Assembly: GCA_903813345.2 (NCBI GenBank) | Contig: CAIIXF020000005.1 | Location: forward strand, 4,493,375-4,557,374 | Length of the DNA stretch: 64,000 nt | Reading direction: 5' to 3' | Source: Owenia fusiformis | Lineage: Eukaryota > Annelida > Polychaeta > Sabellida > Oweniidae | In this document: positions 1 through 64,000 of the stretch, in pieces | Layout: the number at the start of each line of letters is the position of its first letter | Position numbering within the stretch: position 1 is the first letter of the stretch | The notes under the pieces: generated by a model | What the model was told of the DNA's origin: nothing | What the model saw: only the letters and a program-made list of their open reading frames with translations | Databases searched by the model: none | Position numbers and translations under genes: made by a program

Positions 1-149
1 CTTCTACCCCCATAGGGTATAAGTGTACAAAATATGAACAAAATCGGGCCAACGGTATTTGAGTTATTGCCCGGACGGACGGACAGACTAACGGACGGAG
101 GCGTTCCCTATATCCCTCCAAACTTCGTTCGATGGGATAACAAATAATC
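1..149 (-). mobile_element. Terminal fragment of repeat family C (TIR ATCCCATCGAAC)
   Basis: Reverse-strand copy of the end of a repeat seen again at 25,745, 51,898 and, inverted, up to 61,998. It reads outward into the terminal motif ATCCCATCGAAC, preceded by a short tccg/cgga tetramer run. Only the outer 150 bp are inside the window; the rest lies before position 1, inside ING3 intron 4. No coding sequence is visible in it. Confidence 0.75.
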
Positions 150-418
150 TCAAATCAGTATTGTAGAATAACTACTAGCAATAAAAATACCATTTCTACA
201 TCATACTAGCCAAATTGGCAAGGATGGTTGAAGTTCATTTTTTCAAGCCAAGCTTCAGTTAAAAAGTGAGAATTTGACAGTTTACTCTGTATTTGCCATT
301 CTGGAAAGCAAATTTTGATCAATCCCAAAACCAATTTTACACTCGCAATCAGTTAGTGGCAAATGGTTGTATTTTCACATTGCTATGGACATAGTAAACA
401 AGCATTAACATGACAAAA

Positions 419-965
419 TGTCACCACCTAGTTGCTCATAATATTATTAGTTCAATCTTAAGTCAGATTTGAATTTCTAAGAACTTGTAGTTGATTTTGA
501 AAAAGAAAATTGGTCAATTTGAAGCAAGATAGAAAATACCTTGAGAATGTCATTGAAGGTCAAATCTATAGTCAGATTTGAACATTTAAGAACTTATGTA
601 GATGATTTTGAATAAAAAATTGCTCAATTTAAACAAGTTGAAAAAAGACCTTTTTGACATTTTTTGACCTTGAGAAGGTCATTGAAGGTCAAATCTCAAA
701 TCTAAAGTCAGATTTGAACTTCTGATAACTTGTAGATGATTTTGAATTTGGAGCAAGTCGAAAAAATACCTTTTTGACCTTGAGAAGGTCAAATCTTAAA
801 TATAAAGTCAGGTTTGAACTTCTGAAAACTTAGAAGTCAGTCTAAACAGTTAGTTAGTAATTGAAAGTTGTAAGAATTTGTTACAGACTCAGATCGCCAA
901 CCACCAACCGCCGTTAAAAAAACGGAGACCATAACAATATATCACCACTTTTTGGTGGTGACATA
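419..965 (+). mobile_element. Repeat family D copy 1 (TIR TGTCACCACC) with three minisatellite units
   Basis: Starts with TGTCACCACC and ends with GGTGGTGACA, a 10-bp terminal inverted repeat. The interior has about three copies of the ~130-bp unit that is expanded at 1,738-3,900, followed by a unique tail (gtcagtctaaacag ... aacggagaccataac) shared with copy 2. The left flank ATTAACATGACA is common to all three copies, so the true end may lie slightly further out. It sits in ING3 intron 4. It is non-coding and presumably non-autonomous. Confidence 0.75.
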
Positions 966-1076
966 ATAAAACTGTTTATGTTTCAAGACTGCATCATATT
1001 AAAGTCCATTTATTGAGGCCATCAAATCAATAGTAACTCTAGGTTTATAAAATACATTAATGAACTTGACACTTAC

Positions 1077-6401: not shown

Positions 6402-6974
6402 TTTGGTTCCTTATTTTTTCGGGGGGCAAAATGTACTTCAGCATATGTGATTTTGATTATGTAGTAGGGGTTTTCTGATTGGCTGAAAATAAATAAGCAA
6501 TTTAAGGTAAAATGCTTCATTTCTGATCTTTTGGAGTCGTTCTAAATCATTTCAGCATATATATTCGATACACATAATATATTTGTTATAAATGAAACAA
6601 CTAAAGTAAACATAAAAGCCCGTGGCTTTCATTTTTTCCTGAATATGTCTAAAACTACTGATTTCAGTCAGCCAATCAAATTTTACTTAACATCTTATTT
6701 GGTATTTTTAAATTTCAATTAGTGTCCTCCATCTTTAATTTTCATGATTTTTTAAATGACAACTGCGCAAGAACAACACTCGTAAACACATAAAATAAGA
6801 TTCACAACGGGTTTTAGCATTCTTTAGTATATGAAAAATTGAAACAATGAATACGAAATCTTGAGATTTAGCTAAAATATGAGATTATCATTTTGGCAAG
6901 TACTCAAATTTGATTGGTTGGCTTCAGATATCTAAGACTTCCGGTTTAGGCAGATTGAAAGTTTATTTGTGAAA
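6402..6974. promoter_or_regulatory. Shared ING3/AMT divergent promoter region
   Basis: 573 bp between the two start codons, ING3 leaving on the minus strand and AMT on the plus strand. Three CCAAT boxes (NF-Y type) are visible: ATTGG at 6,478-6,482, CCAAT at 6,672-6,676 and ATTGG at 6,913-6,917. No clear TATA box in either direction. The spacing and CCAAT content fit a bidirectional housekeeping promoter; this is inference, as transcription starts cannot be read from sequence. Confidence 0.6.
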
Positions 6975-12212: not shown

Positions 12213-14180
12213 GTATTTTAACAATGCACACTCAGCAATAATAGTGGTACAACGATAATGGTAATACAACGATAAATACATGCATGGTAATGGAATATAC
12301 AGTAGAGAGGTAAGTTAACCATGTGAGATTATACCCATGATAGGAATGTACTTGCATAAATTAAACGATATTAAAATGATCAGATGCTCATGTATAATGG
12401 AAACGAAACTTATATGAGGGAAATGGTGCCAAATATTTGAACAGATTATATATTCTGTACAGTATTAATATATATACCAGGACTGTATAGCCAGCTTTTG
12501 ACAACTTTGGCCAAAAATCACTTGAAAAGGGTTGAGAATGGTGAAAAAACCCTGAACCCCCCTCAGCTATGGGCATGCGTACTATACTTAAATGTAATGT
12601 GAAATATGAATGTTGCCATGATAACAGACATAGTGTAGACCATAGTAAGACTTAGAGTAGACCATATAAATAAGTGACATAGAGTAGACCATAGTAAAGT
12701 GACATGGATTAGACCATAACAAGAGACATGAGTAAATCATAATTAGATAGAATTGACCATAATAAAGGACAACGAGTACACAAACATAATTACCTTATTA
12801 TCTTTTCTCTCAGGTGACCAAGTTAATGAAATGAGTATTTTATGTGATTATGGTGTGAAAGGATCTAATTTACGGACACTGCACTCTCATCTTGTGAAAG
12901 ATAAATCTAATTATATATACAGCTGTGTTTATCTGCATCATATTAGAATGTACTTTTCTTTAAAAAATTGTAATTCTCATTGGTTTATGATTCTTTGAAC
13001 AGTACGTTCTTTGATTTCAGAAATATTCATTTTAGACATCGCATTGAACGAGGACATATATGAACCAGTGTATTAAAAATATTATCCTCAAATTTAAGAG
13101 GATACTTACACTAATCCTATTGTGGAATACATGCACAGTGCATCATAACTTAAAGTAAAATTGTAAATGAACGCTTTCAGATTAGTTTTCAGAATGATTG
13201 TCATATCAGGACATATAAAGTCATGATAGAAATGTTAATGGTTTTCTGACATTTTGGGATCAGTGATGGTCATATTATCATACCAACTTTGTTGATTGTT
13301 GAACTGTTGATTTTGCTTGCTATTGGCTGTAAATAATATTAATTATTATAGAATTGTAATTAAAAGGGTTGCCATAATGTACTATATGTATTTACCCAGT
13401 ATATTTTTTCTTACTAATATTGTTGGTTTGTTGAATTATAAAATTTATTTTATTAAAATATTTACGAAATAAACAAAATGATTTTCAATATGCAATATCT
13501 TAAAAATGTATAATTTATTTTTATATTATAACATAAGACATACAAAGTAATATGTAAGACATGGAATGGTTAAATCATGAAGAGATCATATACATCAGAC
13601 AGACATTGTAGACTCAGTGTTATTTTACATGTAATATTATTCCATGATTAATGTGATATCTGTATAATAACAACCAGTGATACGTCTGATATTATGGAGA
13701 TCCAGGTGATGTTATTTAAAAAATCATTTATCTGTCAAGCTACATATTTGGCTGATATCATTTATCAGCTGCATATCTGTGTGATAAACAAATTTGAATT
13801 TTTCTTAAAAATCAAGGGATAAACCCAATATCAGATAATTTCTCATCAGATCAGATCAGATCATTTAATAGCCTCGTAGGTACCAAATACTCAACACGTA
13901 TTCGCTTCTCTCACTCATGTTGATATTTAATATCAACTTGTCAATTAAAAAGATATCACTCAAAATGATCTGATATTGCCTATATATTAACCTGTTAATG
14001 TTGATCATTTACATTTACATGGATGATATAATTTTCTTTGTTTATTACCTAGTCACTAGGTTGTCCAGATATCATATATCTATTCATGGATAAATCACAT
14101 CACTCATAAATCGTCAGGAAAGCGTCTATTTATTACTAGATGTTGTGTATTCTGGCAGTATATACAAAAAGTTTGCCAAA
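12213..14180 (+). other. AMT 3' flank and possible 3' UTR
   Basis: AT-rich, no open frame with coding character. At 12,625-12,760 a degenerate minisatellite repeats gtagaccatagtaa / gacata. The clearest AATAAA is at 13,468-13,473; whether AMT transcripts reach it is unknown. A short open frame at 12,753-12,998 has no recognisable product. Confidence 0.4.
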
Positions 14181-14188
14181 TGTAAGAG

Positions 14189-15471
14189 CTTCCTGGTCAA
14201 CTCAACCCCAAGTCAACTCAACCCAAGTCAACTCAACCCATAGTCAAGTCGACCCCAAGTCAAGTCGACCCTTAGTCAAGTCGACCCCAAGTCATCTCGA
14301 CCCTTAGTCAACTCGACCCCAAGTCATCTCAACCCTTGGTCAACTCAACCCTTAGTCAAGTCGACCCCAATGATTTTACTTGTTTTAAGTAGATTAAAAT
14401 ACAATATAATATATCATTAAATAGTACTTCGTTGAATATTTTGATAGTATATGATTTATTAAAGGAATAATAGAAAATTATGGCAAAGATAAACTTTCCT
14501 ATTTGAATCCAATTTGATTAATGCAATTTCTTTCCTAATTCAAAAATAGATATTGCATTGAGAAAATAAATCTGACATATGATTAAGATAATGAGAAACA
14601 GAAATCCCATTGTTTGTACAGTCTTGTTTTAAAATCTGACTTCAAAAAATAAACATTTCCGTCACCTATAGATCATAAGGAAGATTTGAACTGGATCATA
14701 AAATCCCAATCTGATTGTTTATGACACCTGACATATGAGTAAGATAATGGAAAATAGAAAAACATACATGTAAATCCCATTGTTTGTTCAGTCTTGTTTT
14801 AAGATCTAACTTCAAAAAATAAACATTTCAATCGCCTAAAGATCAGAAGGAAGATTTGAACTATATCATATTGTTTATTGTTTATTATTATTATCAAAAT
14901 ATAAAATCATTCAATACAAAGTAATGGATGGATGTTGGCACAATGCACATTTTGCAAAAGTTACCTGTTGTCAAAAAATACTGTTGCAACAATTTCGGTA
15001 TAACAGAAAAGTGTATAGAAAAATTCTATTTACAATTATAATTTTTTATTTCAGAGAGATAAAACAAGCTCAAATATGAAAGGGTGAAATATATGTATAG
15101 CATCGTGAATAGCCCTCTTAAGATTTATGAAATATTATTTTGGTAAATAAATGTCATATTTATAAAAATTATAACTAGTTGATAATTTTGTTTTGGAAAA
15201 TTAGCATTTTAATCCCTCATTCTTTCAAAATTCATTTCAATATCATACCATGAAAGGTACATCTATTTGTTTTTATGATGGGGTCGAGTTGACTAAGGGT
15301 TGAGATGACCAAGGGTTGAGATGACTTGGGGTCGAATTGACTAAGGGTCGAGATGACTTGGGGTCGACTTGACTAAGGGTCGACTTGACTTAGGGTCGAC
15401 TTGACTAAGGGTTGAGTTGACTTGGGTTGAGTTGACTTGGGGTTGAGTTGACCAGTTACCATGTAAGAGAT
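14189..15471. mobile_element. Fold-back-type transposon with 8-bp target duplication
   Basis: About 180-bp arms at 14,194-14,370 and 15,283-15,460 are inverted copies of each other, and each arm is itself a tandem array of a 14-17-bp unit (agtcaagtcgaccc / agtcaactcaaccc). The element is bounded by TGTAAGAG at 14,181-14,188 and 15,472-15,479. The interior has a ~130-bp direct duplication (14,572-14,700 and 14,729-14,872) and no coding sequence. Subrepeat-built inverted arms are typical of fold-back elements. It must depend on a transposase encoded elsewhere. Confidence 0.85.
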
Positions 15472-15479
15472 ACATCTAT

Positions 15480-17481
15480 TGGTTTATTAACTGAATTTAA
15501 AATTAAAAAATTAACATCAAAATATTTTACACTTTTTGAATTACACATACTGAAAACTGAAAGATGGCTCTGTGATATAATGATCAGGTTTTGTTATAAC
15601 TCCAGTTAGATATATTGGAGAGGTAATCATATATAGTTCTCATGATATCTCTAATTTTTTATTTTTTGATATGTTTTGATGATATATTCACAGAATGTAC
15701 AATAAATAATGACTTAACTTGTCAATCCAACTAAAATATTTAGATCTTACAGAAATACATAATGGTTGCCATAGTGACAAAGATTACACCTCGTATGTTT
15801 CAGTCAGAATATCGGAAACCTTCCATTTCCATTGTATTACTGAATGTATGCAACTGCCTAATACAAATTACAATATATTTACACTTTATTTAAATAAAAA
15901 TAGTAAGAATATATAAGATTAATATGCCCAGATGTTCCAAAGAAGAAACTCTACGAAAAGTTAAAATACTACATTTCTTATATCAGAATAATACTCTCTT
16001 ATATCTGTTTTGTAAATTATGATATAAAAAATACTATAGATTGTGCCATTCCCCCCTGGGTGGTACATTAGTAGTCACCAAATGTAACTTTAAACATGAT
16101 AAATCCCTTTACCAATAAGTAGCGTTTCATGTTCTTATGGTATTATCTTTCAAATTATCCCAAGGCTTCGCTAAAGCAATGCTTTGATGAAGGGAGATAA
16201 ATCAATCATGTCCTATGTAAAATTGTTATTGTGATAAGTACAAGAATTCCTACATATTACATGTATTATAATTGTTTAACATGTAAAAATATTGTAACGG
16301 TTTCTCAGTTTGTTGAATGAATTATTTAAATATGTGTGAACATCAATGCACGCTGATACACATTATTTATAAAAAATGTCATATTTATCCCCACCCAAAG
16401 CATTACAATATTAAAACCAGCAATTAACAGATTGCGTGAAATTATGATGGCTTCATAAAAATACTTTAATCATCATACTCTCTCATTAATTAATTAGGTT
16501 TCTATGTGTTATTGATAGGGCCTGTCTCCTATTTCATTCATCATGGTCTAATATACATACCATTGGAAACAGCTCTTCCTGTAACATAGCACAGTATTTG
16601 ATAAACTTCATTGCTTTCCCTTTTTTAATTGCCTGAATTATTTCAAGTTTCATAGTACATTTAAAATAACATTCATTTTCTCTTATCTTCAGTAGATCCG
16701 TTTTGTGGTAGATGTCATTTCAGCATAATTTTAACAAAATATTCTGATTTTGAATCATGTTTTCTACTGCTATGTGTTAATATCCATAACAACATTTTGA
16801 AAAACATTACCCATTTGATTGATTCTTGTTGATTGAAATCATTAAAATTACATGGGAATACAATGCATTAAAATGTTTTCAAGGACAAATCCCCTGTTAC
16901 AAAAATAAATAAAAAAGAAGTATGAGTGGCAAGTGTTCTATATATAGATCTTAATAGAATTGTACTTAGAGCATCATTGTCAATGTATTTACCTGGAGAT
17001 AATCCATTGATCCTTGTAAGGCAGGGTAACCTGACATAAATGCTGCTCATTAAAATCATGGTACACTGTTTATTATTAGGTATTATACAACTTCTGTTGC
17101 TACCAGGTTTTCTGAATATGTGGAATATTGCGAAGCCCAAACCCTGGTCAATGTAGTAGTTTGTCCTTGTACTACTATGTATAAGTGAAGAGACTACCTT
17201 TATTTCTTGCAATAGATTGGTGTGTACCCCCAAAGCTGAAAGTTTGAATGAGTATCTCAGTCATCTATTTGCCATATGTTTGATTGTAACGCAGTCACTT
17301 TTTGATGCTGTACTACTCTTGCACTGACTTCTTCCAGCTACACTGAACTGTTCAATTATTTCTTTGTTGAAGTTATTTTGATAATGTATACACAACAATA
17401 CTGCACTGTATTGTACTGTACTATACCGTACTGTATGTAGTGTACTGCACTGTATGTAGTGTACTGTATTGAACTGAACAG
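15480..17481. other. Non-coding, AT-rich interval
   Basis: No exon with family resemblance and no defined repeat were recognised. An open frame on the minus strand at 17,233-16,868 (121 residues) lies downstream of the unidentified gene's stop codon and is most easily explained as 3' UTR. Near 17,392-17,470 there is a simple gtactgtactgta-type tract. Confidence 0.4.
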
Positions 17482-18549
17482 TTAGATTATTGTACATCCC
17501 CAGCAACATTGTTGAGGGTAGTCAGGGGAATATACAGAGCGGTTTGTCCCATAAACCCAGAATCTTGTATTGGTATCCTTCCACTGGTAGCGACACTCAG
17601 TCACTGGTACAGCTCGCAGAATCTGACGCTGGAAGTAAATATGTTTGTTTAAGAGTTGCACAATTCATTATTATTTCACTACCTTATTCTTCTCTCTGTG
17701 ATTGGTCCAAGTCATGACATTTTGTCCAACTTTGAGTTTGTCTTGTGTAATTTATAATTTACTTCTATCTGTTATTCCAAGGGTGTAAATTTGTATATTT
17801 ATACTTTTTAACATTTTATACATTCATTTGATACATTTTAACTTTTACATTGTTTTCATGTAATTATTGTAGTTACTGATGCCCCTATTGTAATTTTAGT
17901 GTACCATAGTTAAGAAAGCATAAGTCAAACTAAATACATATGTAGTAAGTAAAGTAATATGTTAGCAACTTACCTGTTGAATCCACCTCTCACTGGCAAA
18001 GCTCTGGCGATGATGGTCACATAGTCTTTGGGAGTTTTGGTTAATCTCAGCAATAGGGTATGCAATGATAGGCCAAATCTGTACAAAAATGGAACATTGT
18101 AGTTTTTACCTTTATACCTGTTTGAAAGTATAGGAACAGTTAACCTGTCAGTGTGGAACATCGTTGGTACCTCTAAAAAGTGTTCCACTTCGGAGGTGTT
18201 TCACTTATAGAGGTTCATTTAACATTAAATCAGTTGGTCTTGAGACTGAAAAGTGTTCCACTGACAGAGGTGTTCCACTTTACAGGTTTCACTGTCCCTC
18301 ATTTCACAATATTTTAAATATGTTTTAATCAGAAAATTTAGAGAGCATGATTATAGTGAAATTGTGAAAGGATCATTCACAGTTCTTGATATATTTAAAT
18401 AAGACAAGTTTCTTTAAATCTGTGGAATAAGAATGGGTATTCTTACTTGTGGAAGCGTTTGTTCAAATATAGGTATTCCCCCTACATCTCTGACCAGTTC
18501 ATCAGGCATATCTGTTTTCTCCATGATATGGTCACTTAGGTGATTTATA
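17482..18549 (-). CDS. Unidentified conserved-looking gene, last three exons
   Basis: Three exons join in frame on the minus strand: 18,549-18,447, 18,078-17,974 and 17,628-17,482 (stop TAA). Splice sites are good (tatag/gtaaga, acag/gtaagt, ccag), phases match, and together they encode 117 residues. Visible stretches are DHIMEKTDMPDELVRDVGG, IFEQTLPQIWPIIAYPIAEI, RLCDHHRQSF, ILRAVPVTECRYQW and a C-terminus of FWVYGTNRSVYSPDYPQQCC-WGCTII. Regular codon structure, short exons and the Trp/Cys/Pro-rich end argue for a real gene. I do not recognise the family and give no function. Upstream exons should lie between 18,550 and the gap or beyond it; the promoter at 19.8 kb could be theirs if it works in both directions. 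The 3' end is complete, the 5' end missing. Confidence 0.75.
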
Positions 18550-18917
18550 CTATAAAGCAAATATGTATTGTGGTCATTACAGTGATTTTGATTATTAAAC
18601 AAACACAAAATAGTTGTCACTTAAGTGATAAGTGTAATACAAATACTTAAACTTGTAGATTAAAATGTATCATGGATAGAGATTTTGGTAATTTGGCTTT
18701 TGTATAAGTTAAGTAGAGATGAGATAATTTGAATCCGACATCAAATAATGCATTTACTTTGAATTAGCCACTCTCAACTTTCTTTCTATAGGTATCTCAG
18801 AAGCCTTGTATCTGAAGCTACTTGCCTCCACTTTACAGGTTTCACTGTCCCTCATTTCACAATATTTTAAATATGTTTTAATCAGAAAATTTAGAGAGCA
18901 TGATTATAGTGAAAACC
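18271..18917 (+). repeat. Direct 90-bp duplication (18,271-18,362 and 18,829-18,917) beside a contig end
   Basis: ccactttacaggtttcac to gagcatgattatagtgaaa occurs twice, almost identically, the second time 65 bp before the contig end. It could be a true duplication or an assembly artefact at the contig edge. Confidence 0.7.
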
Positions 18918-18981
18918 CACGATATCATGATGTCTGTTTCGTACATGTAAATGGTTTGTTCTATAAACAGTTTAGCCACGT

Positions 18982-33139: not shown

Positions 33140-33359
33140 CTTAAACATCATGGGTCAAAACCGAATGACATGCTTTGGCAAGAAGTGATACATTTATCAT
33201 GGTGTCATTGTGTGTGTTTCATTTAGTCTGGGGGTAGAGTACTGACAAATATTTCTTCAAAATCATTCAATTACTGTACTGTACTTCTTACTGTGCTCAG
33301 TCCATCAATACAGGTATTGGAATATCTCCAGGTTACCAGTTAAACATTTGCATTTATTG

Positions 33360-35785
33360 CTGGTCATTGAGATGGGCTGACTGAAAGATGACATATCATT
33401 TATTATAGGTCATTGAGATGGGCTGACTGATAGATGAAGTATAATTTATTATGCATTTATTATAGGTCACTGAGATTGGCTGACTGGTGGATGAAGTAAA
33501 ATTTATTGTAGGTCATTGACATGGGCTGACTGGTGGATGAAGTATCATTTGTTATGTATTAATTGTAGGTCAATGAGATGGGCTGACTTGTGAAAGAAGT
33601 ATCATTTATTATGCATTTATTATAGGTCAATGACATGGGCTGACTGGTGGATGAAGTATCATTTATTATGTTTTTATGGTCAATGAGATGGGGTGACTGG
33701 TGGATGAAGTATCATTTATTATGTTTTTATGGTCAATGAGATGGGGTGACTGGTGGATGAAGTATCTTTTATTATGTATTTATTATAGGTCAATGAGATG
33801 GGATGACTGGTGGATGAAGTATCATTTATTATGTATTTATTATAGGTCAATGACATGGGCTGACTGGTGGATGAAGTATCATTTATTATGTATTTATTAT
33901 AGGTCAATGACATGGGCTGACTGGTGGATGAAGTATCTTTTATTATGTATTTATTATAGGTCAATGAGATGGGATGACTGGTGGATGAAGTATCATTTAT
34001 TATGCATTTATTATAGGTGAATGACATGGGCTGACTGGTGGATGAAGTATCATTTATTATGTATCTATTATATGTCAATGAGATGGGGTGACTGGTGGAT
34101 GAAGTATCATTTATTATGTATCTATTATATGTCAATGAGATGGGGTGACTGGTGGATGAAGTATCATTTATTATGCATTTATTTTAGGTCAATGACAGGG
34201 GCTGACTGGTGAATGAAGTATCATTTATTATATATTTATTATAGGTCAATGAGATGGTGTGACTGGTGAATGAAGTATCATTTATTATATATTTATTATA
34301 GGTCAATGACATGGGCTGACTGGTGAATGAAGTATCATTTATTATATATCTATTATAGGTCAATGAGATGGGGTGACTGGTGGATGAAGTATCATTTATT
34401 ATGTATCTATTATATGTCAATGAGATGGGGTGACTGGTGAATGAAGTATCATTTATTATATATTTATTATAGGTCAATTAGATGAGCTGACTGGTGAATG
34501 AAGTATCATTTATTATATATTTATTATAGGTCAATTAGATGAGCTGACTGGTGAATGAAGTATCATTTATTATGTATCTATTATATGTCAATGAGATGGG
34601 GTGACTGGTGGATGAAGTATCATTTATTATACATTTATTATAGGTCAATTGGATGAGCTGACTGGTGAATGAAGTATCATTTATTATGTATCTATTATAT
34701 GTCAATGAGATGGGGTGACTGGTGGATGAAGTATCATTTATTATACATTTATTATAGGTCAATTGGATGAGCTGACTGGTGAATGAAGTATCATTTATTA
34801 TGCATTTATTATAGGTCAATGAGATGGGCTGACTGGTGAATGAAGTATCATTTATTATGTATCTATTATATGTCAATGAGATGGGGTGGCTGATGGATGA
34901 AGTATCATTTATTATGTATTTATTATAGGTCAATTAGATGAGTTGACTGGTGAATGAAGTATCTTTTATTATGTATTTATTATAGGTCAATGAGATGGGG
35001 TGACTGGTGGATGAAGTATCATTTATTATGTATCTATTATAGGTCAATGAGATGGGGTGACTGGTGGATGAAGTATCATTTATTATGCAATTATTATAGG
35101 TCAATGACATGGGCTGACTGGTGGATAATGTATCATTTATTATGTATCTATTATAGGTCAATGAGATGGGGTGACTGGTGGATAATGTATCATTTATTAT
35201 GTATCTATTATAGGTCAATGACATGGGCTGACTGGTGGATAATGTATCATTTATTATGCATTTATTATAGGTCAATGAGATGGGCTGACTGGTGGATGAG
35301 TGGATGAAGTATCATTTATTATGTATCTATTATACATGTCAATGAGATGGGGTGACTGATGGATGAAGTATCATTTATTATGTATTTATTATAGGTCAAT
35401 GAGATGGGCTGACTTGTGAATGAAGTATCATTTATTATGCATTTATTATAGGTCAATGACATGGGCTGACTGGTGGATGAAGTATCATTTATTATGTATT
35501 TATTATAGGTCAATGACATGGGCTGACTGGTGGATGAAGTATCATTTATTATGTATTTATTATAGGTCAATGACATGGGCTGACTGGTGAATGAAGTATC
35601 ATTTATTATGCATTTGTTTTCTAGGTTGATGAGATTGGGTGAATGGAGTATGATTTATTATGCATTTATCATAGGTCGATGAGATGGGGTGAATGAAGTA
35701 TAATTTATTATAGGTCAATGAGATGGGCTGACTGGTGGATGGAGTATAATTTATTATGCATTTATTATAGGTTGATGATATTAGA
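33360..35785 (+). repeat. Tandem array with a 57-bp unit (about 40 copies)
   Basis: Unit close to ggtcaatgagatggggtgac tggtggatgaagtatcattt attatgtatttattata. Two main variants differ at gacatgggctg versus gagatggggtg and are interleaved, indicating higher-order turnover. The unit length is 19 codons, so long frames stay open on both strands (e.g. MRWGDWWMKYHLLCIYYRS per unit). These are a consequence of the period and not evidence of a protein. Confidence 0.92.
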
Positions 35786-37689
35786 AGCTAGGCCTACATG
35801 TAGATGCAAGGTTAAACAATATGAAGTCATTGAAAATGGGGCAGACTACTTATTACGCCATTTTCTGATAGTCTCCAAGATAACCCATTTATAGATCTGA
35901 ATATGGATTTAAATACATTTAGTTTCAATTGATGCATGTCCATTTTATTTTATTTATTTAAAATATAGTCTGGAGATGATCCAGGTGTAGATACTGTATA
36001 TTATGCATCAGCTCTGGGTTACCACTTTACCAAAAAATGTGTTTTTATTTTTAAGAATTAAATAAAATGGAGGCGCATCAGTTTGAAATTAAATAAATCT
36101 ATATAAAAAATGTTTATATTGGTATTGTCTTCTACATTAGTTGTTTTTGATCATAACTGACTTCAAAGAACATTTATCAAGTGTAATAATTGATTTGATC
36201 ATTCCATGGACTGGAATTCATACATGTAACACACTAAACATTTAATAGGTGTTACATAATTTTGTTTTAAAACATAGTGACTTAGAATAGGCTGGGTTAT
36301 GATGAAATGATGTCAGTTAATAATGACATATCATTAAACTACAATACAAATATTTTTGCAACTCAATCAAACCTGAAAAAGAAGCAATGTGAAATAAACA
36401 AAAGGACTAAAACATGAATCTATTTTTCAATGAAATCCAAAGGCCATGATAACAACTGGGAATATATATTATATCATATCTGGGGAGTAGGCAGCTAGTC
36501 TAACCCTTATTTAAATCTATGCTACCCCCATGATTATGTGGATTAGAGACCACAAAATGTAAACATTTTCAAAATACTGAAGTGTAAACAAATGCAGTAT
36601 TGTAATTTTAGTATGTAACTGTATTGTAATTGCTTTAACATATTTTCTCAAATGCAGTTATATCACTTAAATAATAATTATGTATTTATTGTAATTGAAT
36701 TAGGCCTAACATATTTTCTCTGAAATAAAATAAAATGGTTGGAAGTAATCATTTCAATGTATCCCTAGCATGAACATGTATCACCTACAAGTTTGATTTT
36801 ATTATTCTGAAATAAAGAATTGAGATATTTATCAATTATAGACTGATAGGAGTAATTGAATATTTAAGAAACAAAATGTCAAAATTCATTAGAATAGCCA
36901 GCCACTGTTCAAAGATTCTGAGATAATCATTAAAATTAAAGGATTATCATAAAATAAAGTCTGAACTGTTGGACTCTAAGACACAGGACTACACAAAGGT
37001 TTGTCATGAAATAAAATCTGAATTGATAGACTAGAAAAAAAGGATGATATAAAATATTGTGAGCAAAACACTGTGATAGTTTTTAAGAAAATTGTTTCAG
37101 TGTTCATATAATCATTATAATAGTTGAATCTGTGCTTACCTTTTTGCTAATGCTCTTTCAGCCTCCCAAAATGTTATTGTAATACTATATTGATGATTTA
37201 GTTAAATAAAATAAACTGTAAATAAAAAATGCTTATATCTCAGAGTTATTATTATTATTTTATTATTAGCATCTTCAGTGATATGGATTTTTGACATGTG
37301 TCAATCAAGCAAGTTTCTACATTCTATGGGCCATTGCATTCACATGGAAAACACATTCTTACTGTTTTAAAAATACAACCCATAACAAATAGATAAATTT
37401 GTATCCATTTTAAAATCATTTTCCATTTGAAATTGTAGACGTCTTTCATTAAATTTGATAACCTTATCACACAGATATTCATAAAAGTAACTTCAAACTA
37501 ACACCAACCTAAAATCAAGAAAATGTTTTTTTTTTATTTTCGACCATGACTGACTCGATCACTCCATTCTACGGCAAATCCAATGATGATGAATTGAAAA
37601 ATTCGTGCTGTTAAAAATGATATGCTGAATTTCAATTACGTCTAATAAATAACTTAAAAATTGGTGCATTTACCATTGCAGATGTGAAA
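35786..37689. other. Non-coding part of the 11.6-kb insertion
   Basis: AT-rich. No gene, RNA gene or bounded repeat recognised. Some short pieces (e.g. around 36,960 and 37,020, aaataaa-tctgaa-tg) look like weak internal duplications. Confidence 0.35.
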
Positions 37690-53481: not shown

Positions 53482-53981
53482 NNNNNNNNNNNNNNNNNNN
53501 NNNNNNNNNNNNNNNNNNNNNNNNNNNNNNNNNNNNNNNNNNNNNNNNNNNNNNNNNNNNNNNNNNNNNNNNNNNNNNNNNNNNNNNNNNNNNNNNNNNN
53601 NNNNNNNNNNNNNNNNNNNNNNNNNNNNNNNNNNNNNNNNNNNNNNNNNNNNNNNNNNNNNNNNNNNNNNNNNNNNNNNNNNNNNNNNNNNNNNNNNNNN
53701 NNNNNNNNNNNNNNNNNNNNNNNNNNNNNNNNNNNNNNNNNNNNNNNNNNNNNNNNNNNNNNNNNNNNNNNNNNNNNNNNNNNNNNNNNNNNNNNNNNNN
53801 NNNNNNNNNNNNNNNNNNNNNNNNNNNNNNNNNNNNNNNNNNNNNNNNNNNNNNNNNNNNNNNNNNNNNNNNNNNNNNNNNNNNNNNNNNNNNNNNNNNN
53901 NNNNNNNNNNNNNNNNNNNNNNNNNNNNNNNNNNNNNNNNNNNNNNNNNNNNNNNNNNNNNNNNNNNNNNNNNNNNNNNNN
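53482..53981. other. Assembly gap, exactly 500 N
   Basis: Scaffold join of unknown real size between contig 2 and the contig with CATSPERB. The left side stops within the inverted duplication. Confidence 0.98.
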
Positions 53982-54087
53982 TCACCCGCTCATGCATTGT
54001 ATATTTGTGTGTATTTAAAAAAGGAAATAAACATAAACATAATGAAAGATGAATAGGATGCACTTGATGCGTAAACGTGTATGCTAT

Positions 54088-54377
54088 CAGTGGCGTAACG
54101 TTGGTATTTTGTGAGGGTACGCCACGAGTAAGCGATAGACGTGCTGTGAGGGGGGTTCGGGTGAGGTCCCCCCAAGAAAATTTGAAAATGAGATCGCATT
54201 TGAAGCGTTCTGGGGCGTTTGAAATACGAAATTCCGACTATTATGGACGAATAGAATGTAAATTATTAGCCATTTTTGAAGTGTGGGGCAAATCAATATA
54301 AAAAATCAACTGTTTTCTAAATTTTGAGAGTAAGCCTACGCCATGGCGTTTTATGCGTATATGACGCTACGCCATTG
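54088..54377. mobile_element. 290-bp MITE with TIR CARTGGCGTARCG and 4-bp duplication
   Basis: CAGTGGCGTAACG at the left pairs with CGCTACGCCATTG at the right; CTAT flanks both ends (54,084-54,087 and 54,378-54,381). Contains a ggtccccccaagaaaatttg segment common in this kind of element. The superfamily is not certain (Chapaev/CACTA-type ends are possible). Short open frames inside are not genes. Confidence 0.82.
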
Positions 54378-54381
54378 CTAT

Positions 54382-55446
54382 AAATTATAATTAACCAATT
54401 TACTAAGGACGTTGTAATGGGCCATTTTGATCAATTATGTTAAGAATTCCTAGTAAAATTGACTTGTAGATTCACAGAAAAGTTCCTCAATGGATTTTGA
54501 TATCTAAATCAACTGTAACACGCGTGTGTAAGGCCTAATAACATTTTGAACACAGAGACAACCGTTTTTAACAACATGAATGATGATTTTTTAAATCATA
54601 TAATATTGTAATAATAAGGTACTTTTAGGCTGCGTTCATAGGTTTAACTTTTCAAAATTACAATACAAATACCTTGAAATACGAGCACCTCGATAATCCT
54701 TTAACGCTTTAACCAGTCGCGATATAATCCATGTCATTTTCAATAAGGCCTAGCAATTTACATAATTGACCAAAACGTTACTTTTAAAATGCTATTATTT
54801 TTTGACCATGGAGCATATAACCTTGATACTGATCGTATCCGGACACTGATATGTCTTTAACTCCAAAAGGCCAAGTGATGAGCAAACAGGTCCATTGATT
54901 GTTAATAAGGGACGATCATTTTTGCTGTCTACATCCTAATTTTGATGAAATTGATCATTTAAGGACTACCGGAGAGCAAGTAGGAGATGTGATGGAAAAT
55001 AAGATAGGAGAAAGAAACACAACCAAGAATAATTTGTTAGTTTCTTGTACCGTATTTCCTCAACTCATTTTCTTGAATCACAATCCACAAAGTATGAGTC
55101 ATATCGACTTTTCCAAGATGATCGGTTCTCAAAGTAATTTGAAATTGCCGCGAAATCAACTTATTGGGAAAATATAATCCCCGATTGCATATTCTTTCTC
55201 ACTTTTCAGACATGTGCCGACGCGTTTTTTCTTGAATAATATAATTGATTATACCGTATTTTATTAATACATATAATATTCTTTAACATATTTTTACCGT
55301 AATAAATAATGAAAAAGCAAAAGCTTCGTCTGCTAAATGAATGCGCCAAAGTAGTTCCAATATGTCTGACATGTAGAAATCAAAAAAACAACTTTTGTAC
55401 TTGTATGAACATTAACTATCAAATAAGTGATATAATACTCGTGAAA
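54382..55446. other. Upstream region of CATSPERB
   Basis: AT-rich. No recognised promoter elements. The CATSPERB frame is open from 55,309, but codons 1-46 before the preferred start look like 5' UTR. An open frame at 54,899-55,177 has no family resemblance. Confidence 0.4.
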
Positions 55447-58400
55447 ATGACAAACAATATAGCTTGGAATACATTTATAAAGACAGTGATATTACTTGTC
55501 ACTGTTACATGCTGTACAGGCAACTATGTGCTACAGGTTCAAAATACTGGAGGTGGAAATTTTATTCCAAACAAGTTAATTTTGAATGGTGATACTTTGA
55601 TTATAAATTGTGAAATCATAGATCCTGACTTTGATTCATATGATGATCGACAACTTTTGCTGTATGAGTACCAAATGCAAGGCCACTCACCAAGCATCAC
55701 TCTTACTAACTCAACCTGGTCTCGTGTCTTCAACTTCCCCATGGATGGGACTGCATGGATCCTGTCGATTCCTCGCGTTGACATTGTTGGACCTGATCTC
55801 TCTGTACATCCCAGAGAACAATGGAAAGTATCAATTGAACTTAACATGAACATGCACTTATTCAAAACTTATGGGACACTTGTTGATTTGGTGAGCGAAC
55901 CTATTGCACAATGGTTGTTGAACCCCGAAAGTCCCCCCAATCCATCAACGTTATCTACAGCGACACAAATTCTTCATACAAGTAGCCCTTGTTCTGCAGA
56001 TGTGGGAATTATGAGTCCTATTTTCAGTGATCTCACAATTGGAATTTGGCTGTTTGTGACTTATACGTCGTTTCAAGCACCAAATGAACCTTGGTATAAT
56101 CTGAACACTAATACCCAATGGTGCGCAACATTGGATTGTTCGAGCGTACACCTCATTGATATGGAGTTAACAAACAATTATCTCCTATTACTGACAAACC
56201 ATGGCCTAGTTATACTGGATATGCTAGCTTCTGATGAAGCACAACTTTTTCACCTGGTTAACCCATTCGCTTCTACAAACCATTCTAATGTATTCAATAC
56301 TCCTCTGGCATTGGGAGACATGGCCTTAACATATGTGAACTATTGTGCAAGCAAACATCATACAATAAAAAAACATCAACTTGTGAGTGTTTGCTGTAGT
56401 ACGTGCCCTGCAAGCCCTGAAACATGCGTACATTCAGTGCCACCATACACGACTTGGTATGCTGTTTACAATGATGTGAATGGAGCCGTTCCTCCTGCTG
56501 ATTTATCAAGGGTGATTGACATGGTGTTTAACTTCCATATTGACTGTATGGTAATTCTGTACCAGACAGTTACCTCAGAATATGCTGTAGAAACTAGAGA
56601 GGTATTGCCTGATACCATTACATGCTTTTTCATGGCCTTGTTCCCATCATTTAAGTTTCCCTCCGATGCTGTTTTAACACACCTGTATTTCCATGTTCCT
56701 ACGGCAACATCATATTGCCATGGAAACCAAATCTGGATGAGTGTAGACTGTGGAAATATGTTTTCTTTATCAAGTCAGTTAATATCAACTTCAGGATTAA
56801 TGCATAATATGTATAGCAATCTAGATTTGGATACAGCTTTAGGAGTAACTGATGATAATGGTGCCTACTATACCAAAGCTGGTGTGAATAGATTTGCATA
56901 TATTGGGCCAGTCGATGACAGTCTACCCTATATATTCCATGTTGATCACCTGGGTTTTACGCGACATGTACAAATTGGTTCAGCTGGTGAAAATTTCTCA
57001 ACCACAGATTTCGATCCACAATCTCGCCTGTATGCTATTGATAATATTGTTAAACTTAGCCATCCACTAGCATTGAGATTTGTGACCAACGAGAAGATCA
57101 ACTTGTATGAGTATGATGTTGGATTAACATCTGAATTCTCCGATATGCATATTGGTCAACAATTGACCCTGCAGAATGGTGGAAGTGCTCTGATAAACAA
57201 CGTCTTAAAATTGAAATTTGCGAAACCTCATTGGGTGTCTTACATCACAGCTTATATCAACACTCCCCTATCTCCAGAGAGCTTCACTACAAGTCCTGCT
57301 CAGCAGTATGACATCACAGTGACAAATTTGGATTCTGATGCTGAGACAGTAACTTTAACTCTATCAGATAGTGGCTCTCCAATAGGTGGCACTGGGTGGA
57401 AATCGAGTGATGTGCACAAAACTGTTACTATTCGGTATTTAGGGGGATCTTATCTGATCATATCTTATACAGACACATCAAATGTTGTTGCTGTATCAAC
57501 TGTTGCATCACCGAAATCTGCATCTGCTCCTGGAGGGAAATGGTTCATGTTCAATTTTGGAGAATTTGAATCTCAAATGAACTGGTATTTGGAAGAAGCA
57601 CCTTGTCAACATAGCTGGTATCCAGATAGCACCACTAAGACTCAATTTGATTTAGATTCTGGAGATCGACTCACATTAGAACAAAGGGCCTTTTCAACTG
57701 GCGATGCTAGTACACAGCCATACAGCCACTTGATATATCTCAGAATGAGCAATCCCTTCTTCTATCATCCAGAGTTCACAGAAACTATAAATCATCAAGA
57801 TATAAACTTATTAAAGGTTGAGATGCAGGATGAGATGTTTAGTCAAGCAATGACAGTTGTTACTTTTCAGATGGTTGATGCATCTCTCAAGTGCCCTATA
57901 GTAACTAAAGTCTTCAGGGTGTATTCAGGATGTCCCGAGAGAAAGGTTTTGCAGTTCCACTACCCACATGAAATCTCTATACAGGAGTTTCTCTATGGTA
58001 ACCCTCTTGATAATAATAATCGATCTCTCATACAAGAACTTGTGCCAAATTATCGCCCACCATCACATATTGGGATAGATATTCCACTGACTGATAATAT
58101 ATACAACGCTGACCCAAGTGTTCCAAGACCTAATGATTATTTCAAGATATCCAAAGAATCTGGCAATTTAAAACAATGTGCCGGTGCATCAAATCGTGCC
58201 ATGTGTACCTGCACTGATGAAATGAAATTCAGCGATGATGTAAAATACTCAGATTGTCATCAACGTGTTTACAGGCTACTGTTTCCCGGAAAACTCACAT
58301 TGAACTTTACAGTAAATCAACCTGGTAAACAGACATATGTACTCGAGGAACAGTATATTATTCATATTTCGGAGCAGAACAATCGCAAAGATTACACAAC

Positions 58401-58752
58401 CTCATCAAAGGCTTCATCTATGCTTAAGTTTGCCAAAGCAAGTAAGGACCTAGGTGATACCTCAAAGCTTCTGACCCCTGGAGGCACTGCTTTAATCACA
58501 ATGTTTGCTTCAGGACTCTACCATTTCAAAGTAACACTCATGGATGGCTTCACATACTGTCCTCTTGAGACTCAATTTATGGTTTTCGTTGACTCCCCTC
58601 CATTAGCCTTCCCTTTGGTGTATGTGCTGATAGCCAGTGTTAGCATGTGTGTTGGTATTTCCATTTTCATGTCCTATATTTGGTATCTATCCAAGCATCA
58701 TCATTTTAGAATCAGAAAAGTAGGTTCACAATGTCAACCTTTTCATAGTTAG
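55309..58752 (+). CDS. CATSPERB: CATSPERB, sperm CatSper channel subunit beta, in a single exon
   Basis: Accessory single-pass subunit of the CatSper calcium channel of the sperm flagellum, with a large extracellular part. The frame has 1,147 codons; the likely start is Met47 (55,447), directly before a signal peptide (WNTFIKTVILLVTVTCC), giving 1,101 residues against about 1,116 in human. Stretches shared with CATSPERB as I recall it: EQWKVSIEL, GTLVDLVSEPIAQW, FPSFKFPS, YTKAGVNRF, NYRPPSHIGIDIPLTDN, then KQCAGASNRAMCTCT and SDCHQRVYRL, and LYHFKVTLMDG before the membrane segment (about 1,101-1,127). A short basic tail follows. No frameshift or stop breaks the protein. Absence of introns is unusual: the mammalian gene has many exons and neighbouring genes here are split. 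A donor-like GTAGGT at 58,720 could add a further C-terminal exon. It lies between inverted arms and beside a gap. Confidence 0.95.
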   Translation: MKKQKLRLLNECAKVVPICLTCRNQKNNFCTCMNINYQISDIILVKMTNNIAWNTFIKTVILLVTVTCCTGNYVLQVQNTGGGNFIPNKLILNGDTLIINCEIIDPDFDSYDDRQLLLYEYQMQGHSPSITLTNSTWSRVFNFPMDGTAWILSIPRVDIVGPDLSVHPREQWKVSIELNMNMHLFKTYGTLVDLVSEPIAQWLLNPESPPNPSTLSTATQILHTSSPCSADVGIMSPIFSDLTIGIWLFVTYTSFQAPNEPWYNLNTNTQWCATLDCSSVHLIDMELTNNYLLLLTNHGLVILDMLASDEAQLFHLVNPFASTNHSNVFNTPLALGDMALTYVNYCASKHHTIKKHQLVSVCCSTCPASPETCVHSVPPYTTWYAVYNDVNGAVPPADLSRVIDMVFNFHIDCMVILYQTVTSEYAVETREVLPDTITCFFMALFPSFKFPSDAVLTHLYFHVPTATSYCHGNQIWMSVDCGNMFSLSSQLISTSGLMHNMYSNLDLDTALGVTDDNGAYYTKAGVNRFAYIGPVDDSLPYIFHVDHLGFTRHVQIGSAGENFSTTDFDPQSRLYAIDNIVKLSHPLALRFVTNEKINLYEYDVGLTSEFSDMHIGQQLTLQNGGSALINNVLKLKFAKPHWVSYITAYINTPLSPESFTTSPAQQYDITVTNLDSDAETVTLTLSDSGSPIGGTGWKSSDVHKTVTIRYLGGSYLIISYTDTSNVVAVSTVASPKSASAPGGKWFMFNFGEFESQMNWYLEEAPCQHSWYPDSTTKTQFDLDSGDRLTLEQRAFSTGDASTQPYSHLIYLRMSNPFFYHPEFTETINHQDINLLKVEMQDEMFSQAMTVVTFQMVDASLKCPIVTKVFRVYSGCPERKVLQFHYPHEISIQEFLYGNPLDNNNRSLIQELVPNYRPPSHIGIDIPLTDNIYNADPSVPRPNDYFKISKESGNLKQCAGASNRAMCTCTDEMKFSDDVKYSDCHQRVYRLLFPGKLTLNFTVNQPGKQTYVLEEQYIIHISEQNNRKDYTTSSKASSMLKFAKASKDLGDTSKLLTPGGTALITMFASGLYHFKVTLMDGFTYCPLETQFMVFVDSPPLAFPLVYVLIASVSMCVGISIFMSYIWYLSKHHHFRIRKVGSQCQPFHS

Positions 58753-59996
58753 AGTTAGATAACTCAGTTCAGCTGTCAGCAATTGAAAGGAATCCTATGT
58801 TACACGACCAGATGAGTCCATAAAGTTACTTCTATCAGGGTGAGGTGGGGGGGGGAGTAAAACCCTACATGACAATGTCATTCTCAAAGAATATTGATTT
58901 TAAAAAATTTAAGTGAAACACATGTCAACATTACAAAATTTTGTTATACAGTGGGTGTGAGGGGTAAACCACGGAGGAATTAACTATTTTTTCACTTTTG
59001 GTAATATTTGGCCACCCCCTGAAGGCTTACTGACATATTGATAGGCCTATATCTAACTGTGCTTGAGGAATGAATGAAGCATACTTTAATGTTTAGAGGG
59101 TATCATACTTTAAACTGAATCAATTCACTTTCAAAATCTTTAATTTTACAAATTTTATTTCACCACCGAAAAGTGGTGACATATTGTTAGCAACCATTTT
59201 GCTGACAGTTATTTGGCACAGTAAGATATAGTTTCTGATGTTCACTACTATGAATAGGGCATGACTTCAAATGATAAACTTAAAAGGACAAGTCGCTTTT
59301 AGGTTGACTGTACTTAAATATGTCAGTAACATCTTCTATGTAATACAGAATAGCATTATTTTATTAAGGATTGGTTATACTATTCAGGATTTTCCAGAAT
59401 TGGCAGTATATCAAAACATTCACTTTTCAAATGGAATAGACTAGATGCGAGTAGAAATAACCTTGATTTACATCATTAAATATTCAAAATTCAGTCAAAG
59501 TGATGTCATAGTTGAAATCTGCATGTAAAAGTACATCTAGAAACATGGTTTCGAAAATTGTCTATCAACTTTGAAAATGTAATTTTTTTTGAAAATGTGA
59601 CTTCTTGTTCGGGTTGATTCCTCATAGACCCCATGTTACAAAATCACAAAAGGTGAATTATCTTTTCTTGTATTGGACAGATAACATTTTCTTTTACTGG
59701 ACATATTTAACATCTGTAGCCTTGATGAATAAAATTATAAATATAAGACATGAATGTAAAATATATATTATTTCTGATGATTAAAAATGAACAGCTACGT
59801 TGTATGAGTAGACATTGTGCACTGAGGCTGTTCTTAGTGTATAAGAGAATCATGTTAAGTACTGATGATGCCATGATAGTTGATCTCAGAATACTAGTAA
59901 CATAACAGAAATTGTGTATAATATTATGTTTATCTGGATATAAAAAGATATGTAAATAATGTTCAATATTTACAATTATAATAATACTTGTGGATG
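58753..59996. other. CATSPERB 3' flank
   Basis: No second gene recognised. An AATAAA is at 59,728-59,733; no long A-tract follows the stop codon. At 59,160-59,185 caccaccgaaaagtggtgac is a relic of a family D terminus. A minus-strand open frame at 60,018-59,707 has no family resemblance. Confidence 0.4.
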
Positions 59997-60512
59997 TGAC
60001 CTTAGGTCGACACAACATTATGATAGTGTAAAAATGGTCATTAGGTCGACAAATGAAAAATTTGAAAATTTTCTAAAAACAGAAAAATAATATCGTATTT
60101 GAGGTAATTAGACATAAGAATAGTCTTTGGGGGGATTATTATGATGTTTTATGTGATATTTTAGGAGATAAAATTTTTTTGTTGACCTAATACCATCAAC
60201 ATTTTTTTACACACTAGATTGGTCATTAGGTCGACACAAAGATAATAATGATAATAATACAAAAATGTAGACATTAGGTCGACATTTCTTTAATAATACA
60301 AAATGTCGTCATTAGGTCGACATTTAAATAATAATACTAAAATATGGTCATTTGGTCAACATATTGCAAAAATATAGTCATTGGGTCGACAATTTGATAA
60401 TATACAGAAATATGGGCATTAGGTCTACATTTTAGTAATAATACAAAATATGGTCATTTGGTCAACATATTGATATAATAATTCAGAAATATAGTCATTG
60501 GGTCGACACTTA
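59997..60512 (+). repeat. Tandem repeat built on GTCATTAGGTCGACA
   Basis: About ten copies of a 35-60-bp unit, gtcattaggtcgaca plus an AT-rich filler such as taataatacaaaaatat. Variants have ggtcaac or ggtctac. Its last part (from 60,457) is also at the end of contig 2 (53,430-53,481, inverted). A lone taggtcgacattg is at 19,568. Confidence 0.75.
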
Positions 60513-60995
60513 GGTAATAATACAAATATATGGTACTCGAGACAATGATTATCACTTTACGGTTAAACGTCAAAGGATAAAGAGTTGACTGCTGTGCATT
60601 TTTACTCTTGGCATGATTTTATTGTTTTATGTTTACACGCCACACTTACTTTGTCACAACCTGTGTATGTTGTTATGTGAATATATCATTATTGAGTCAA
60701 TTTTCGTTCACCACACTGTTTATCAAATAAATGCATCATCCAGAAATATGTTACGTGAACAATGGAGTGCATTCAATTCCGGAACTCAAAATTGGCAAAT
60801 AACTTAAAATAAAGTGCCAATACTGTGATTTGATTAAAATCAAACGCCAATGGCCAATGGGCATTTAGAGTATGGCAAACATGTTTCGAAAACTGGCGGG
60901 ATAATTGAAATAAGAAAATCCATTCTCATTGAAGTGCCCTTATGTGCATTTAATTGTGATCATTTTCTCTTTATTGCCCATGGGCATTTAAAAAT

Positions 60996-61998
60996 AACCA
61001 GAACAACAGCAACGCCAAAGCGTAGCGAATCCCATCGAACAGCCATGGCTGGCATATTTACAAACAAAGTACAAGTATATAGCAAAAATAACAGCCATTT
61101 TTCAAAATGGCCACCTTCTACCATTAGACAGTGACATTAGACAGTGTGCCATGCTTATAGTATTCACATACCAAATATGAACAAAATCGCTCCAGTACTT
61201 TTCGAGTTATAGTAAAATACGTTAAAATGGCGGCCATTTTTCAAAATGGCCACATTCTACCAATAGTGTCATTAGACAGTGTGCTATGCTTATAGTATTC
61301 TCATACCAAATATGAAAAAATCGCTCCACTACTTTTCGAGTTACAGTAAAATACGTTAAAATGGCGGACATTTTTCAAAATGGCCGCTTTCTACCAAAAG
61401 TGTCATTAGACAGTGTGCCATGCTTATAGTATTCACATACCAAATATGAACAAAAGCGCTCAACTACTTTTTGAGTTATAGTAAAATACGTTAAAATTGC
61501 GGCCATTTTTCAAAATGGCGGCTATTTTTCAAAACGGCCGCCTTCTACCAAAAGTGTTATTAGACAGCGTGCCATGCTTATAGTATTCACATACCAAATA
61601 TGAACAAAATTGCTCCACTACTTTTTGAATTATAGTAAAATATGTTAAAATAGCGAGTAAAGGCCGCCATTTTTCAAGATGGCGGCCATGTGCTCCTTTA
61701 ATATCTACATTTCTAGCTTTATTAATGTCCTATATAATTTTTTTACATTTAAAACATATTGCTATTACAGTTTTACATATTGCACCTAAATTACTGTAAA
61801 ATTGGCAATAAAATGGCCGCCATTTTTAAATGAGCGGCCATTTTGAAAATCGGCTTTCGAGCAGAACTTCTACCCCCATAGGGTATATGTGTACAAAATA
61901 TGAACAAAAGCGGGCTAACGGTATTTGAGTTATTGCCAGGACGGACGGACGGACAGAGGCGTTCCCTATATCCCTCCGAACTTCGTTCAGTGGGATAA
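60996..61998 (-). mobile_element. Repeat family C copy in right arm
   Basis: Inverted counterpart of 51,898-52,915. It runs from ccagaacaacagcaacg through the inner ATCCCATCGAAC at 61,030 and about five ~150-bp units to cgaacttcgttcagtgggat at the outer end. One terminal base pair differs (cagtggg versus cgatggg). Non-coding. Confidence 0.85.
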
Positions 61999-63646
61999 TA
62001 ACTCTTAAAGCTTAGAATATTGGAAGAGGCTCAAAAGGGAAGACAGGAATATACAGTGCCCATAGAAAATGCCCATATGGGCATTTTATCTTACGATTTT
62101 CACATAATTGCCATTGAGAATCTTATTAATAATGATTTTTTTATTTCCATCTACATGTCTTATTATCAGTTTCAATCAAAATTAAACCAATTGCTTTCAT
62201 TTCTTTTAATAGAAAGTGGGAAAATTTGTACAAAGTTGACATTTGAACATTCCAATGTTAAATTTTTTTAGAAATCATACTTTCTTTTGAATTATACGCC
62301 CATATACAGTATACTTTTGCATTGGGGGAGGGGCTAAAAGAGGGGTTTATTGACACCTGTTTTACCATTTTCTCTACAGGAAACATTGATAATCAAACAA
62401 ATTAGTGACTGCAACATTTCTTGAAATAATGCAAAGGATCTTCTCTTGGGAATATCCTTTGGCCTGTCTCCTGTGATTATGCGTACAACCTCCATTATGG
62501 CAGGATCAGATCTAGCAAGTAACAAAAACATTATCCCGTGGAAATAATTTGTCACTACTTCCATTAATCAGTTACTTTTTGTGCATTACTCCCCAGTTTA
62601 TCTCTATTGAAGTCAAAGTGAGGTGGAAGAGGGATATCTGACTAACACTTCTCTATCACCATACTGTGGCCAGTATTTCGTGAAAAGGGATACAGGCTTC
62701 AGAGAAGTTGCAAATGGAGGTTGTTCACTTGTTTTCTTATTTCAATATTTCTGAAGGTATTCTCGATTTTACATCCCAAGTATTCTACAATACATTGTAC
62801 ATAGGTTCATTGAGCAGTTTGCAGTATTATATTATTACAAGAGAAGCCCCAAATAACAAAAAAATTAAAGAAGATCCGCTCGATTTGCAAATTCAATGTA
62901 GCCTGTATCCCTTTTAAATGTGGTCAGTTGACAGAATATAGTGACTAAGAACAAATTAGGTGACATTTAAGCTTCAATCATCTAATAAATCTTTATTCAT
63001 TAGCAAATGAAATAATCTACAGTTGCAAGAAGTGGATTCCAGAAAATGTACCAAACTAATGTCCATTGGGATAACTACCCTTTTAGAGTCTGAAACTTCA
63101 GTAAGAGCATATTTAACATCCTCCGATCACAGGGCTTCAAAATCCAGAATATATTCTTTCTTTTTTACCCCTACGATAAGGATGATTTTTAAGGATCAAG
63201 TAATAACTATCAAAATGAGTTTTAACTGATCCTCTTGTAGGGTGGTGTATATTGTATATGTTTACACAGTTACCATATACATTGAATCAGTAATCATTAT
63301 TCCATAAAAGGTCCTCAATTAATCCATCCTTTCTGAGAATTTACTAATTTTATTTAAGTTCAAGAAAATAGTTGTTGAATGACTTCAGTCTTTATCCTTT
63401 GTGCTTCAATAATTCATGTTGTATTCTTGTTTGTCTCTTGTCCATGTTTAGCTTTTTCTGGCCATGGTGATGTTTAGTTTTTTTTTTGTTCACTCTGAAA
63501 ATACAGGTACAAAAGACACATTTAATCAGTAGTCAAGCTTACATTTTATCCTAGGAATGGTTTACAACAGAACATGCATTCTGACCTTTTCTTCAGCCTT
63601 AAAGCCTCAAATGGACAACTGAACTAGCCAAATACCCACTTTTCAG

Positions 63647-63681
63647 CTCACATGGTGAGCTTTTGCAATCGCTCACTTGTC

Positions 63682-63741
<60 letters not shown>

Positions 63742-64000
63742 CGTCAACAATAGTGGCATGTTTTAAAACCTCTGTCGATAGGATTCCTGTTTTAAGTTAT
63801 TTCTGTTCAACATCAATACAGAAAACTCCCCTATGACTCCTGGTTCAAAAGCTCGCCTATTTTCAAAATGGCCGCCATTTTTGTCTCGCGAAATTCAATT
63901 TTGACCCATTTCCTAGCTTTACAAATAATTTCAGGAGTCCTACATTGTAAAAATCCATGTCAATGTAAAGAGTAGATATATGAAATAATTTTGTTCCAAA
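63647..64000 (+). mobile_element. Repeat family E copy 4, first part
   Basis: Starts AGCTCACATGGTGAGC, followed by a long gtctgtccgtctgtccg run and the first ~305-bp unit (aaaacctctgtcgataggat, ctcctggttcaaaagctcgc, aaaatggccgccatttttg). Cut by the window end. Confidence 0.8.

Follow-up and report, generated by a model that had tools for sequence, protein, structure and literature searches.

CATSPERB, the gene for the CatSper beta subunit, is carried by Owenia fusiformis as a single uninterrupted coding exon, and we lean towards the view that it arose by retrogene replacement. This is the best explanation for a gene that has no introns, occurs in one copy and is out of its human linkage. In the window analysed (the whole stretch of 64,000 nucleotides, whose numbering is used unless a scaffold is named), a single open frame of 1,148 codons can be read on the plus strand from 55306 to 58749, with its stop at 58750-58752. 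The first ATG of this frame lies at 55309 and would yield a protein of 1,147 aa; the likely start, at 55447, yields 1,101 aa. When 53982-64000 was shuffled 200 times under a first-order Markov model, the longest open frame had a mean of 115 aa and a maximum of 209 aa, and the runner-up among the N-free open stretches of the whole window, found within a tandem array, counts 154 codons. The features of the coding sequence are as follows:

55447-58752, plus strand: CATSPERB coding sequence, one exon, 1,101 aa, from the likely start ATG at 55447
55447-55521, plus strand: hydrophobic N-terminus, signal-peptide-like (MTNNIAWNTFIKTVILLVTVTCCTG), read from the sequence, no prediction program
55573-55887, plus strand: first CATSPERB domain (PF21541), Pfam E 1.9e-14
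55966-56967, plus strand: second CATSPERB domain (PF21548), Pfam E 9.2e-27
57067-57591, plus strand: CATSPERB head domain (PF22830), Pfam E 4.4e-24
57652-57915, plus strand: CATSPERB Ig-like domain (PF22831), E 0.0079, 16.8 of 27 bits, under the curated cut-off
57931-58698, plus strand: CATSPERB C-terminal domain (PF15149), including the membrane segment, Pfam E 1.4e-67

The best solved relative of the encoded protein is mouse CATSPERB (7eeb_E, E 1.1e-90), with which residues 43-1091 pair collinearly over residues 48-1092, so that the similarity extends over the full length. All five CATSPERB domains were found by the Pfam search in the expected order, four of them above the cut-off and the Ig-like domain below it, and hydropathy, the only measure applied here, places a C-terminal membrane segment at residues 1053-1075 approximately, strong near residue 1057. 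With these likenesses to the mammalian protein (collinearity over the full length, the same order of domains and a C-terminal membrane segment), the product is a full-length CATSPERB. Mouse CatSper beta has a large ectodomain and a single membrane pass, and forms part of the canopy above the sperm calcium channel; the annelid product would be an ordinary CatSper beta subunit with the corresponding function in the channel. The difference from mammals lies in the gene, which has many exons there (about 27 in human) and one coding exon here.

Both ends and the length of the protein agree with mouse CATSPERB, and therefore the frame does not conceal a long intron; an intron read in frame was likewise ruled out, the two proteins being collinear and nearly equal in length. 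The original prediction of CATSPERB as an uninterrupted exon of at least 1,101 codons is thereby borne out by the 1,148-codon frame, the Pfam domains and the mouse alignment. It had named as one refuting case that the frame could be one exon of a larger gene, which for the coding part does not hold, as N-terminus, domains, membrane segment and stop share one frame; non-coding exons may exist besides the single coding exon. Several short motifs were also recorded in and behind the frame. The sequence GTRAGT occurs once inside it, at 56383, and downstream there are:

59475 and 59780, plus strand: ATTAAA, motif match only
59728-59733, plus strand: AATAAA, a possible polyadenylation signal, motif match only

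A search of the whole genome for a multi-exon CATSPERB, which had been proposed earlier as a check, returned this locus only. The assembly comprises 498,259,871 bases in 525 contigs, some parts of which read N, and within the limits set by these N stretches neither a second CATSPERB nor an intron-bearing parent was found in it. The single other match of the protein search is at chance level (36% over 46 aa, E 0.83, containing a stop), and a search of the assembly with the PF15149 profile gave the CATSPERB locus and nothing further. Neither COX1 (E up to 1e-5) nor bindin (E up to 1, in a search whose controls also stayed silent) had a match in the assembly.

The position of the gene was compared with human linkage. 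PPP4R3, CPSF2, TDP1, UNC79 and DGLUCY, the last of which is presumably identical to C14orf159, are what we take to be the neighbours of CATSPERB at human 14q31-32, their exact order being assumed likewise. In the passages available of one source, a human gene list, whose C14orf names point to chromosome 14, contains CATSPERB, CPSF2, TDP1, UNC79, PPP4R3A and C14orf159 (PMC6834745). In the annelid, four of the five human chromosome-14 companions (PPP4R3, CPSF2, TDP1 and UNC79) are found on scaffold C8 and CATSPERB on C5; the fifth, DGLUCY, had no match in the assembly, in a search run without a positive control, and was counted as a miss. The locus of CATSPERB thus differs from the human linkage: PPP4R3, CPSF2, TDP1 and UNC79 share a chromosome in annelid and human alike, and CATSPERB has not stayed with them. 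This pattern fits a jump by way of RNA in the annelid line. The same distribution over C5 and C8 would result if CATSPERB had moved in the vertebrate line and the human linkage were derived, which may be the case, but such a move by itself leaves the missing introns unexplained.

It is on this ground that the loss of all introns in place has to be weighed, i.e. recombination of a CATSPERB cDNA with its own gene and no move at all. It would likewise leave the gene with one exon, in a single copy and lacking a poly(A) tract, and the position on C5 could be ancestral for such a gene if it was the vertebrate line that moved it. Against it stand the four companions with a match, all on the other scaffold (DGLUCY being without one), and the removal of all introns from 3.3 kb is generally less common than the loss of a few. 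We regard intron loss in place as unlikely, and less likely than retrogene replacement. The earlier alternative of a functional retrocopy or complete intron loss can accordingly be narrowed in part: a retrocopy, putatively functional, is the better supported of the two (no other copy in the assembly; C5 as opposed to C8 for the four companions with a match).

A poly(A) tract and a target-site duplication are marks of young retrocopies and are not required of old ones. No run of eight or more A residues occurs in 58753-60500, in agreement with the earlier statement that no poly(A) tract was seen. If the gene is a retrogene, the event is therefore old or its marks have decayed. An ancient event is also central to a further reading, by which the single-exon CATSPERB is old and shared by a whole clade, for example the phylum, having come about by retroposition or by intron loss, and would then not be peculiar to this species. 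It agrees with the missing poly(A) tract, with the far divergence of the sequence from mouse, and with the finding that one CATSPERB per genome is usual, the gene being single-copy in sea urchin, amphioxus and two Ciona species according to the accessible part of PMC2572835. The passages at hand of this source, PMC6660944 and PMC10652287 contain no CATSPERB exon counts. We hold such an old, clade-wide state to be rather improbable, somewhat more so than the loss of introns in place.

As to constraint on the frame, approximately 4.5% of the single substitutions in it create a stop (3.5% with transitions weighted), and a copy that had diverged by 5% without constraint would stay stop-free with a probability of about 0.003, a figure for substitutions alone with indels uncounted. 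This low value argues that the frame is probably maintained, as judged from its intactness alone.

More attention should be drawn to the assembly around the gene, the main elements of which are:

19482-53481, no strand: 34,000-bp piece between two gaps of 500 N, probable uncollapsed haplotig
53482-53981, no strand: assembly gap of 500 N

The piece bearing CATSPERB starts at 53982 and runs for 1.3 kb before the open frame begins, and the 5' context of the gene is readable for these 1.3 kb only, up to the gap; AMT and ING are found on the piece 1-18981. The gene is flanked by an inverted repeat, 60464-64000 against 53481-49924 (94%), which grows upon extension to 60464-64565 against 53481-49367 (93%). 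With 20 kb added to the right, five collinear inverted blocks of 92-97% identity were observed, running 3' of CATSPERB from 60464 to 74090 and reaching both ends of 19482-53481, with about 23 kb inside the 34,000-bp piece (26.1-49.4 kb) free of a collinear match. The 94% repeat had suggested that CATSPERB sits in a palindrome or in a composite mobile element; this was rejected, the inverted homology stopping at both ends of the piece. Because it does so, the piece is probably an uncollapsed haplotig that was scaffolded in reverse, although a true inverted duplication around CATSPERB may be present instead. If the piece is read as a reversed haplotig, AMT and ING are tied to CATSPERB by scaffolding only.

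The closeness of the gap, with the CATSPERB piece beginning just 1.3 kb upstream of the frame, and the GC content of bin 56001-58000, the highest of the window (0.396), could be taken as signs of a foreign origin, that is, of an intronless gene brought in from another organism by contamination or horizontal transfer. However, the same piece shares dispersed repeats with 1-18981 and 19482-53481 (61867-62001 against 1-143, 88%), the GC content of the flanks (0.30-0.34) is like that of the remaining window, and the domains are those of animal CATSPERB, all of which makes this origin very improbable. Bacterial and archaeal contigs, when scanned, gave six pattern matches and no relative of CATSPERB. 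Least probable of all is a decaying retrocopy whose parent is concealed in an assembly gap: N runs do occur in the window and the assembly, but 1,101 codons are stop-free with their domains preserved, and a multi-exon parent would need to be wholly concealed.

The contrast with 'intron-rich neighbours', on which the original prediction was partly built, stands in one part: the AMT domains are split over open stretches, as expected, but AMT and ING belong to a different assembly piece and are linked to CATSPERB by scaffolding. AMT domains were matched by three of the four open stretches tested at 7.8-12.2 kb, and the remaining one matched nothing. In the three forward frames of 12300-18980 there was no Pfam match. 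As a control outside the window we used CATSPERD/E, a distant paralogue, whose family matches on scaffold C4 cover 43-62 profile positions each and are kilobases apart; these four pieces may not form one gene. The matches are:

7.8-12.2 kb: AMT-domain matches, GCV_T 1-122, GCV_T 142-198 and GCV_T_C 15-79
about 6180-6260, minus strand: N-terminal piece of ING, profile 8-34 of 102
C4 21,832,317: CATSPERD propeller match, profile search
C4 21,937,474: CATSPERD/E-family match, weak, E 0.127, contains a stop
C4 21,940,315: CATSPERD/E-family match, profile search
C4 21,945,705: CATSPERD/E-family match, profile search

The last three CATSPERD/E pieces are separated by 2.7 and 5.2 kb and the first lies approximately 105 kb off. 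The search that gave these three also matched the CATSPERB frame (E 0.018), as well as C290 with one piece (E 0.053). Searching the assembly with the CATSPERG profile (PF15064) gave one match, below the cut-off (E 0.065) and containing a stop, at a locus on C6 whose opposite strand is open over at least 1,031 aa; the PPP4R3 locus, too, includes an open piece of 362 codons. CATSPERB is not the only long single open frame in this genome.

Under retrogene replacement, the CATSPERB mRNA, once spliced, would have been reverse-transcribed in the germ line, passing through an RNA intermediate, and the cDNA would have been inserted on another chromosome, if the move went in this direction. There the copy would have gained a promoter and presumably testis expression, and the intron-bearing parent would subsequently have been lost. 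We only tentatively extend this to the statement that the sole source of CatSper beta in the lineage is a retrogene on a new chromosome and under a new promoter, with another CatSper subunit gene still split by introns, and that the replacement was favoured by better expression of the compact intronless copy in male germ cells or by the new linkage.

The taking over of the function of a lost parent would be common to CATSPERB and the human orphan retrogenes; the human cases differ in not being testis-specific, mammalian CATSPERB being a gene of sperm. For human, the part of the literature available to us reports 25 orphan retrogenes, 0 of 25 testis-specific (PMC8793726, citing Ciomborowska et al. 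2013), and retrogene replacement is treated there as a known pattern (PMC8793726); in another source seen in part it is described as rare (PMC5803294). The accessible passages of the latter also supply a precedent, SYCP1 of amphioxus. This meiosis gene consists of one coding exon of approximately 3,200 bp and adjoins the ParaHox cluster, and its multi-exon parent is lost, no parental copy having been found (PMC5803294, Garstang and Ferrier 2018). Common to both, as far as these passages go, are a germ-line gene, a coding sequence of about 3.2-3.3 kb in one exon and no multi-exon parent found; in contrast, SYCP1 is backed by transcripts, by splicing in its 5'UTR and by a position that three species share, and CATSPERB is known here from one genome. 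Among the literature matches listed, no intronless CATSPERB appears in titles or abstract openings, which is weak evidence of absence. Retrogene replacement is a known kind of event, of which CATSPERB would be a new member.

General caution should be undertaken in annotation, where a single exon of 3.3 kb might be set aside as a processed pseudogene, yet it is the sole CATSPERB found in the assembly. If true, the replacement of a sperm-channel subunit would offer a clean case in which to ask why genes of the germ line come to be without introns.

Four features in the window concern us here.

19482-53481: 34,000-bp assembly piece, flanked by two 500-N gaps
60251-60531: tandem array shortly 3' of CATSPERB, the CatSper beta gene with a single coding exon; its 38-bp unit includes ATTAGGTCGACA
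33349-35781: tandem array 2.4 kb long, whose unit is estimated from repeat-match offsets at about 57 bp
1770-3907: tandem array, unit about 135 bp, likewise from repeat-match offsets

The 34,000-bp piece matches, in inverted orientation and at 92-97%, the sequence downstream of CATSPERB (60464-64000, continued in L004/L005, the sequence compared alongside the window); this homology extends to both ends of the piece, about 23 kb of which is without a collinear match, and it begins at 60464, within the 38-bp-unit array. The piece is probably an uncollapsed haplotig.

In the array with the unit of about 57 bp, the forward strand is G-rich (GC skew 0.49 in the bin 34001-36000) and long open frames are found on both strands. 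Stretches related to the array with the unit of about 135 bp were found at 454-969 and 9288-9632, and one such relative falls within the AMT gene region.

Elsewhere in the genome assembly, a long open frame was observed on contig C6 (L010:199-3291, minus strand, in the numbering of the stretch taken from that contig), which is at least 1,031 amino acids long, runs to the edge of the examined stretch and shows a weak, below cut-off match to a ricin-type lectin (E 0.003); it is a further long uninterrupted frame in this genome. On C290, the open piece L009:1483-1794 is similar to the membrane end of CATSPERD/E, also below cut-off (E 3.9e-05), and may belong, as one exon, to a further auxiliary subunit of CatSper. 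At the CATSPERD/E locus on C4, a match to the CATSPERD/E C-terminus lies in the open frame L012:9166-9867, inside which a 27-residue unit (SYRPSTLPYDVKCFQNYIKCNANSTRP) occurs five times in tandem, and part of this stretch therefore looks like a recent tandem duplication or a misassembly.
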